Below, one piece after another: positions 39,395 through 41,173 of a stretch of 64,000 bases of DNA. The DNA comes from Polynucleobacter sp. GWA2_45_21 (lineage in GTDB: Bacteria > Pseudomonadota > Gammaproteobacteria > Burkholderiales > Burkholderiaceae). The stretch spans positions 1 through 64,000 of the forward strand of contig NZ_MHZG01000008.1 of the NCBI RefSeq assembly GCF_001830325.1, in the 5' to 3' direction. The translations under genes and the position numbers were made by a program. A model generated the notes under the pieces. The model made no database searches and had not been told where the DNA came from. It saw only the letters and a list, made by a program, of their open reading frames with translations. Position 1 is the first letter of the stretch. Each line of letters begins with the position of its first letter.

Positions 39395-40117
39395 TTGACC
39401 CGTATATTGGCCATCGACACCTCATCTGCTTGGTGTTCGGTGGCTTTATCTTTAAGTGATGCTGTACCTTTAGTTCGCCACCAAAAGGTGTCGGCCGGCG
39501 CTAGCCAGCTCTTATTGCCCTGGGTTGATGAGTTGTTATCTGAAGCTTCGATCGAACTGACTTCTTTAGATGCTATTGCAATTGGCGTTGGCCCGGGTGC
39601 CTTCACAGGAGTTCGCTTGGGTGTTGCCGCCGTCCAGGGTCTGGCGATTGCAACAAGACTTCCAGTTCTGCCTGTGTCAAGTTTGGATGCAATTGCAAGT
39701 CAACTGGTTCTCACCCCAGCATTTATTGCTTCGGGAGCCCAGTCATTTGTGATTGCTGTTGATGCTCGCATGGAAGAGGTCTATTGGGCTCGTTATCGAA
39801 TGACAGCAAATGATCTGCCTCAACGCCAGGGTGATATTCATCTAAGCGCCCCAGAGGGTGTCGATTTGACGGATATCAGCTTTCTTGCGGGTAGTGCGAT
39901 TGCAGAGTTTGGTGACCGCATATTTGCTAGCATTTCTAAGCCCCTTTCTAGTAGTCAGCTTGATTCAAACATTGGGGTTAACGCATTGGGTGTTTTAGCT
40001 TGTGCTCAAGATATGTGGAGCAAAGGCCTTCAACAAGATATCCATTTACTCGAACCACTTTATATTCGCAATAAAGTTGCTTTGACCTCTGCCGAGCGGA
40101 GTCAGCTTCATGGTTGA
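39395..40117 (+). CDS. tsaB: tRNA threonylcarbamoyladenosine biosynthesis protein TsaB
   Basis: ILAIDTSSAWCSVAL; GVGPGAFTGVRLG. Confidence 0.95.
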   Translation: MTRILAIDTSSAWCSVALSLSDAVPLVRHQKVSAGASQLLLPWVDELLSEASIELTSLDAIAIGVGPGAFTGVRLGVAAVQGLAIATRLPVLPVSSLDAIASQLVLTPAFIASGAQSFVIAVDARMEEVYWARYRMTANDLPQRQGDIHLSAPEGVDLTDISFLAGSAIAEFGDRIFASISKPLSSSQLDSNIGVNALGVLACAQDMWSKGLQQDIHLLEPLYIRNKVALTSAERSQLHG

Positions 40118-40655
40118 TGGTAACAACTCCTTGCAGTCAAGCGCGGAGGGTGTAACAGAGCTTTCGTTTCTTCCAATGACTGTCGCAGACCTAGATTCAG
40201 TCCTTGCTATTGAATCTGTTTCACACATTCATCCTTGGACAAAAGGTAATTTCTCAGATTCTCTTGCTGCTGGGCATTGGGCCTACTGTGTCAGGCCGCA
40301 ATTGTCAGATGCCATTAAAGGCAGTTATTTAGATCCAGAGATTCTGTGGGCTTACTGCATCCTTTTTCCTGCGGTTGATGAGTTGCATCTGCTCAATATT
40401 ACGGTTTCACCAAAATTGCGTCGCTTGGGCATTGGCGTAAAAATGATGCATGCGATCGAGGGTGTAGCAGCCCAGCAAAACATACCTCGAATTATTTTAG
40501 AGGTCCGACCAAGTAACGAATCAGCTCTGAAGCTCTATCAAAGACTGGGGTACGAGCAAATTGGTGTGCGCAAAAATTATTACCCGGTGGATGCTGCCAG
40601 TGGATTACGCGAAGATGCTCTGGTTTTGGCTAAATCGATTAAGCTTGAGGTATGA
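40110..40655 (+). CDS. rimI: Ribosomal protein S18-alanine N-acetyltransferase
   Basis: GNAT motif VSPKLRRLGIGVKMM; RPSNESALKLYQRLGYEQIGVRKNYY. Confidence 0.92.
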   Translation: MVDGNNSLQSSAEGVTELSFLPMTVADLDSVLAIESVSHIHPWTKGNFSDSLAAGHWAYCVRPQLSDAIKGSYLDPEILWAYCILFPAVDELHLLNITVSPKLRRLGIGVKMMHAIEGVAAQQNIPRIILEVRPSNESALKLYQRLGYEQIGVRKNYYPVDAASGLREDALVLAKSIKLEV

Positions 40656-41173
40656 ACTCAAGCACTAATTCCGCCTTCCTTAAAGAGATGGGTATTACTG
40701 AATGGACATCTCGTGATGCTGTTCCTGACCAAACCCAGACCGCGGCCCCTACAGCGTCTATTGCTGAGGAAACTCAGGAGCGTAGATCATCAGGAATTTG
40801 GTGGTTTTTTGGCAGCAAACCTCAAGGGGATGCTGAAGTGCTTTTTCACAATATCATTCGTGTACTTGGCTTGAACACACAAGAGTGGTCCTGGAAAAAT
40901 CCTGCAGAAATGTTCAATCCTGAGCTATTGCCATCAGATGGAACCCCCATTGTCGCAATTGCATTTGGTGGGCCTGCTGCTCAAAAATTATCTGGTGAAC
41001 GCGATGGATTGCCAGAGCTGCGTGAAACTGTCTTGGCAATCAATGCAGATGGTGCAGAGGATTTACCACTCATTGCTACTTTTGAATTAAATCAGTTGAT
41101 TGCTAGACCTAAGGACAAGGCTCTTTTTTGGCAGGACCTATTACTTGCTAAATCCGTCCTGCAAAATATCTAA
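40652..41173 (+). CDS. Putative DNA polymerase III psi subunit (HolD)-like protein
   Basis: FLKEMGITEWTSR N-terminus and ARPKDKALFWQDLLLA C-terminus; overlaps rimI stop (ATGA). Confidence 0.5.
   Translation: MNSSTNSAFLKEMGITEWTSRDAVPDQTQTAAPTASIAEETQERRSSGIWWFFGSKPQGDAEVLFHNIIRVLGLNTQEWSWKNPAEMFNPELLPSDGTPIVAIAFGGPAAQKLSGERDGLPELRETVLAINADGAEDLPLIATFELNQLIARPKDKALFWQDLLLAKSVLQNI

Follow-up and report, generated by a model that had tools for sequence, protein, structure and literature searches.

A 2012 review gives chi (HolC) for alpha-, beta- and gammaproteobacteria and psi (HolD) for the gammaproteobacteria alone, and asks whether psi has diverged past detection or whether chi contacts tau directly (PMC3290774). 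Some genomes have also been noted to lack psi although the psi-binding site of their chi is conserved (PMC3197488). The same imbalance is seen in the Burkholderiales, where the Pfam family DNA_III_psi scores above its cut-off in one of 60 genomes and chi is found in 58 of 60, and at class level, with DNA_III_psi in 10/187 and chi in 99/113. Which gene, then, would provide psi in these bacteria? The question is raised by an open reading frame directly after rimI in the window, which is the whole 64,000-nucleotide stretch of Polynucleobacter DNA analysed here. We conclude, with a probability of roughly 0.85, that this frame encodes a psi with a dead family-4 uracil-DNA glycosylase (UDG4) core, derived from a rimI-linked UDG4 ancestor that carried the psi peptide, and that the intact forms in its relatives are probably unrecognised psi.

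The gene (40652..41173, + strand, 173 aa) belongs to a cluster in the order tsaB (39395..40117, +), rimI (40110..40655, +) and holD-like gene. The upstream tsaB overlaps rimI, and the ATG of the psi-like frame lies inside the last rimI codons, with ATGA common to the rimI stop and the start of the frame, which is the 4-nt overlap already described in the first-pass annotation. rimI is a conserved neighbour across Burkholderiales and Gammaproteobacteria; of 37 genomes of the genus, 36 have a homologue next to rimI and one, 83% complete, has none, and in Burkholderiales at large the gene after rimI is usually an intact UDG4 with a psi-like start, so that the adjacency singled out for checking is indeed conserved. 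The parallel drawn with the holD-rimI linkage of E. coli holds for the adjacency but not for the order, since E. coli holD lies before rimI and the window gene after it.

The protein starts with a psi motif (residues 8-21, AFLKEMGITEWTSR, 40673..40714, +), which is covered by the DNA_III_psi match from residue 6 and is by homology the equivalent of the E. coli peptide that binds the DnaX collar. It is followed by a variable, disordered linker (residues 22-48 from the alignment, 40715..40795, +; pLDDT <50 at residues 20-36 and 38-43), and by a C-terminal domain (residues 49-173, 40796..41170, +), whose predicted fold is that of psi and of a degenerate UDG4, as delimited by Foldseek, core-only hhalign and the pLDDT. 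This domain closes with a helix (KDKALFWQDLLLAKSVLQN, 41111..41167, +), defined from the alignments and the model. The AlphaFold2 model has a pLDDT of 82 overall and mostly >90 in the core, with low values in the N-terminal region outside a short helix, in keeping with a DnaX-binding peptide that in psi is disordered when the protein is free. In the alignment of 31 genus members L10, G14 and W18 of the motif are invariant, as is W160 of the C-terminal helix, and the corresponding set in canonical HolD is L9, G13, I14 (nearly invariant) and W122, the last matching W160. The N- and C-terminal peptides quoted earlier in support of HolD (SAFLKEMGITEWTSR and LIARPKDKALFWQDLLLA) are present as given, while the linker, which had been put at about 50 aa, measures about 27 aa and is longer in relatives.

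The profile search that had been recommended against the HolD/psi family gives a match of DNA_III_psi to residues 6-87 of the window protein (E = 3.9e-4), with 21.1 bits against a curated cut-off of 22.2 bits, i.e., 1.1 bits short. The same family matches 30 of 31 genus members (best E 2e-7), and one same-genus copy, that of G016, scores above the cut-off with a match to positions 2-124 of 127. With hhalign, whose E-values here and below are those of single comparisons and not of database searches, the genus profile matches 23 canonical HolDs with E = 5e-13 (prob 97.9%), and with E 7.3e-8 (prob 94.6%) after removal of the N-terminal motif and linker; rimI, used as negative control in this core-only comparison, gave no match. 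When the window protein alone was compared with the PDB sequences, only a chance match came up. The predicted model retrieves E. coli psi at Foldseek ranks 35-37 (1em8_B, 1em8_D and 3sxu_B, all prob 1.00), with E 1.1e-3 and a TM of 0.59 by target length for 1em8_B, and below the psi chains the probability drops to <=0.33 with no competing fold. The window genome encodes chi (G000:C6:16679-17116, minus strand; PF04364, E = 1.1e-29), in which the alignment shows that the positions of W57 and F64, the two residues that E. coli chi needs for psi binding (PMC11981726), are kept, and no other psi candidate was found in that genome. The HolD call is supported by these profile, fold and chi data: as judged from sequence comparison and a predicted structure, the frame is most likely the gene for the missing psi subunit, in a divergent form.

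The first-pass annotation had also considered a UDG relative and set it aside for its missing catalytic motifs, but the homology to UDG4 is even stronger than that to HolD. The window protein itself has a weak match to UDG_fam4 (E = 0.047, residues 99-170), and this family also matches 30 of the 31 members of the genus with a best E of 8e-10; hhalign of the genus profile against a gammaproteobacterial set of intact and degenerate UDG4s gives E 4.4e-25, or 2.7e-23 against UDG4s for the core alone. Ranks 1-34 of the Foldseek search in the PDB are all UdgX or family-4 UDGs (E 9e-6 to 6e-4). A confident UDG assignment had been expected to speak against psi; homology does make that assignment, and psi is not refuted by it.

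The motifs themselves are missing, as had been observed. The protein has no Cys, hence no Fe-S cysteines, and no GEAPG; at the motif A site (residues 50-60, 40799..40831, +) the alignment shows WWFFGSKPQGD in place of WLxIGE[AG]PG, thus FGSKPQG for IGE[AG]PG, and at the motif B site (residues 143-150, 41078..41101, +) TFELNQLI in place of TYHPAYLL, thus FELNQLI for YHPAYLL, with HP changed to EL. The four Fe-S cysteines, motif A GE[AG]PG and motif B HPxxLL of a family-4 enzyme are therefore all absent, and so are the Fe-S cluster and the uracil-DNA-trapping histidine of UdgX, which speaks against the window protein being an active UDG4 or UdgX. Six other loci of the genus (L028, L029, L030, L033, L035 and L036) retain YHP[ED][HD]LL, read as TYHPEHLL in some copies. 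On its sequence and predicted fold, the window protein is a catalytically dead family-4 UDG by descent. The window genome has a separate family-1 Ung with GQDPYH (locus L031, G000:C15:85077-85583), besides which PF03167 found no match there; with a family-1 Ung and no UDG4, uracil repair is independent of the degenerate gene.

Compared with known systems, the window protein shares with HolD/psi (PF03603, TIGR00664; E. coli 1EM8 and 3SXU, and P. aeruginosa psi) the N-terminal motif, the linker and alpha/beta core, the C-terminal W helix, the rimI linkage and the genomic chi, but its core is very divergent and still aligns lengthwise with UDG4, and its linker is longer than that of E. coli HolD. 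With family-4 UDGs (TIGR00758; T. thermophilus 1UI0, S. tokodaii 4ZBY) it has the fold in common and a sequence that aligns collinearly (profile E 4e-25), but it lacks their Fe-S cysteines, GE[AG]PG and HP motif, and it has an N-terminal psi motif that the solved UDG4 structures do not. UdgX is an Fe-S protein that traps uracil-DNA covalently; M. smegmatis UdgX (6AJS etc.), with a UDG4-like fold, is the best Foldseek match of the window model (E 9e-6), whereas the residues needed for trapping are absent in the window protein. A UDG fold with a role independent of catalysis is also seen in the poxvirus D4 UDG, a component of replication processivity (PMC1936997), but this is an analogy only, with a viral UDG and an unrelated origin of the replication role.

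In E. coli the psi N-terminus binds DnaX domain III and the remainder binds chi, which in turn binds the SSB tail (PMC3290774, PMC13213242). Modelled on this, residues about 8-21 of the window protein would dock on the DnaX collar, followed by the flexible linker, and its C-terminal domain would hold chi, which would bind the SSB tail; with these contacts psi would link lagging-strand DNA coated with SSB to the clamp loader. The ancestor would have been a rimI-linked UDG4 already bearing the psi peptide, and in the window lineage the two catalytic motifs and the Fe-S cysteines would have disappeared, leaving a dead C-terminal domain, while the same architecture with an intact active site would persist in most other Burkholderiales and Gammaproteobacteria, probably as unrecognised psi. 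We infer that evolution proceeded from catalytic to dead, because the intact forms are widely spread taxonomically. What is observed, and what this reading is built upon, is the homology to both families, the synteny, the conservation of the motif, the loss of catalytic residues and the predicted fold.

These intact forms were surveyed in the gene after rimI in about 50 Burkholderiales families and in the gene before rimI in 70 gammaproteobacterial family representatives. In Burkholderiales the gene is usually an intact UDG4 with a psi-like N-terminal motif, a variable linker and then the Fe-S domain; the motif of L073 in G062 (LKEMGITEWRLR), for example, matches the window protein at LKEMGITEW. 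In Gammaproteobacteria the gene in the E. coli holD position is likewise usually an intact UDG4, starting with YLxAMGIxxWxxR. The motif is found in 35 of 39 intact Burkholderiales UDG4s, against about 0.15 in shuffles, and in 48 of 52 intact gammaproteobacterial ones, against about 0.65 (combined, 83/91 against about 0.8). A scan of named genomes, independent of the family samples and with an L142-led alignment as query, gave 80 UDG4 loci, 77 of them readable and 72 with rimI, of which 65 have the strict motif (e.g., Ralstonia pickettii, Burkholderia singularis, Chromobacterium alticapitis, Nitrosomonas eutropha and Thiothrix eikelboomii). Three named loci, labelled Zetaproteobacteria, Planctomycetaceae and Methylomirabilota, have neither rimI nor the strict motif, and no Pseudomonas was among the 80 loci. 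The Thermus, Thermotoga and Sulfolobus UDG4s in the PDB have few residues ahead of the Fe-S domain, with no room for the motif.

The intact proteins could be replisome-tethered repair enzymes and not psi, with chi reaching DnaX directly or through another protein. Most lineages retain their catalytic motifs in full, and direct chi-tau contact is one of the options raised in the 2012 review (PMC3290774). However, they occupy the holD position with the same motif, no other psi is recognisable in 59 of 60 genomes of the order at the Pfam cut-off, and catalysis has been lost repeatedly while the motif was retained. Nine Burkholderiales loci from seven other families (f4 and f9 twice, f18, f19, f34, f42 and f44) have lost the catalytic motifs partly or wholly, and the N-terminal motif is recognisable in all, if weak in L065; seven gammaproteobacterial loci (L111, L113, L126, L142, L154, L165 and L175) show the same pattern. 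If tethered uracil repair were the sole job, the reverse would be expected, with catalysis kept and the motif lost. Judging from these sequences, catalysis is expendable at the rimI locus and the N-terminal motif is not, and we regard a pure repair role of the intact proteins as the less likely option, though far from a negligible one. In the phylogenetic tree the genus's own copies group together, and the degenerate copies sit on long branches, unplaced among the UDG4s, so that taxonomy is the sole guide to how many independent losses there were. Our preference, at somewhat better than even odds, is that the intact rimI-linked UDG4s are combined psi-UDG proteins.

The survey also brought some further observations. 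Two chi-positive Burkholderiales, L080 (G055) and L086 (G075), have no UDG4 or psi after rimI, where one has a TnpB-like transposase and the other an apparent biotin-ligase-like frame; their psi is therefore elsewhere or missing. The rimI-linked UDG4 of L174 (G197:C32:32730-36122, frame ending at 1447) appears to contain an intein of about 340 aa, which splits the frame just ahead of the conserved Cys of the K-CRPP motif; the insert starts with CLRYNTPVQLADGSW, ends with VVHN and is followed by CRPPNNRDP. In other classes of Pseudomonadota, the UDG4s of one family that is probably zetaproteobacterial start with YLREIGVQTPxxL (loci among L181, L184, L185, L187, L197, L271 and others), and others of that set, probably alphaproteobacterial, start with FYLEAGVDxAxxExP; these starts are possible older or variant psi motifs. 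Caulobacter has chi, and an alphaproteobacterial psi may thus hide among such UDG4s.

Six chi-negative genomes have a UDG4 that could be read; the motif is lost in one of them, has Y for W in two and is fully or partly kept in three. The first is G076 (L090/L323), a member of the order with no detectable chi, in which an intact UDG4 without the N-terminal psi motif follows rimI. It is a possible natural control in which chi and motif are both gone, but this co-loss is suggestive at most, because the five other genomes keep the motif or its Y variant.

That the motif stays on UDG4 in some chi-negative genomes would also suit a dead UDG4 that uses the psi-like peptide as a clamp-loader tether only and has a job other than psi, e.g., binding uracil, abasic sites or ssDNA at the fork, with no binding to chi. 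The closest folds are indeed UdgX and UDG4, and P. aeruginosa psi binds ssDNA (PMC3197488). Against this, the core alone matches canonical HolD (7.3e-8), the model matches the 1EM8 psi fold, and the genome has a chi with the psi-contact positions and no other psi candidate found, which makes such a role of the window protein quite improbable.

It is highly improbable, too, that the UDG likeness of psi is convergent, i.e., that an unrelated alpha/beta domain was captured and the N-terminal peptide gained independently by UDG4 and psi. The canonical HolD core matches the UDG4 core weakly by hhalign (E 4.5e-4, prob 33%), rising to 2.6e-10 only with degenerate intermediates in the gammaproteobacterial set, and Foldseek with an E. 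coli-type HolD model retrieved psi structures only and no UDG4, so canonical HolD alone does not lead to UDG4 by fold. The window family, however, matches both families across the same residues with the N-terminus excluded, and graded intermediates exist at the same locus. From the weak core match and the negative fold search, the homology between E. coli psi and UDG4 is therefore largely transitive, and the latter result may explain that E. coli gives little hint of the relationship.

A decaying pseudogene or chance frame, for which one in-frame stop in each of two same-genus copies could be cited, is a practically negligible prospect and is ruled out by conservation: nearly all members of the genus have the frame open and beside rimI, the N-terminal motif is invariant, and the pairwise dN/dS of 0.02-0.09 to four close relatives means that the protein is maintained, confirming that the frame is under purifying selection. 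The stops lie in the matched stretches of L016 and L035 (G019, G029), and the one in L016, near the C-terminal end, cuts off no more than the last residues, the frame being conserved otherwise.

The window gene itself belongs, as a divergent copy, to a subunit family that is already known; the novelty lies in the proposed origin of psi and in the candidate psi-UDG form of most sampled relatives. No paper that connects psi with UDG was found in the full-text literature searched, which includes few subscription journals. A psi candidate lies beside rimI in nearly every sampled Burkholderiales genome, where the annotation would read uracil-DNA glycosylase or hypothetical protein, which offers an answer to the chi-without-psi puzzle. 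The findings suggest that a textbook replisome subunit originated from a repair enzyme, and a UDG origin could account for the ssDNA binding of P. aeruginosa psi. We consider it rather probable that most Gammaproteobacteria and Burkholderiales carry the ancestral catalytic UDG doubling as psi, with uracil excision at the fork, and that catalysis was lost repeatedly; this predicts that uracil excision would be part of the clamp loader in many bacteria.
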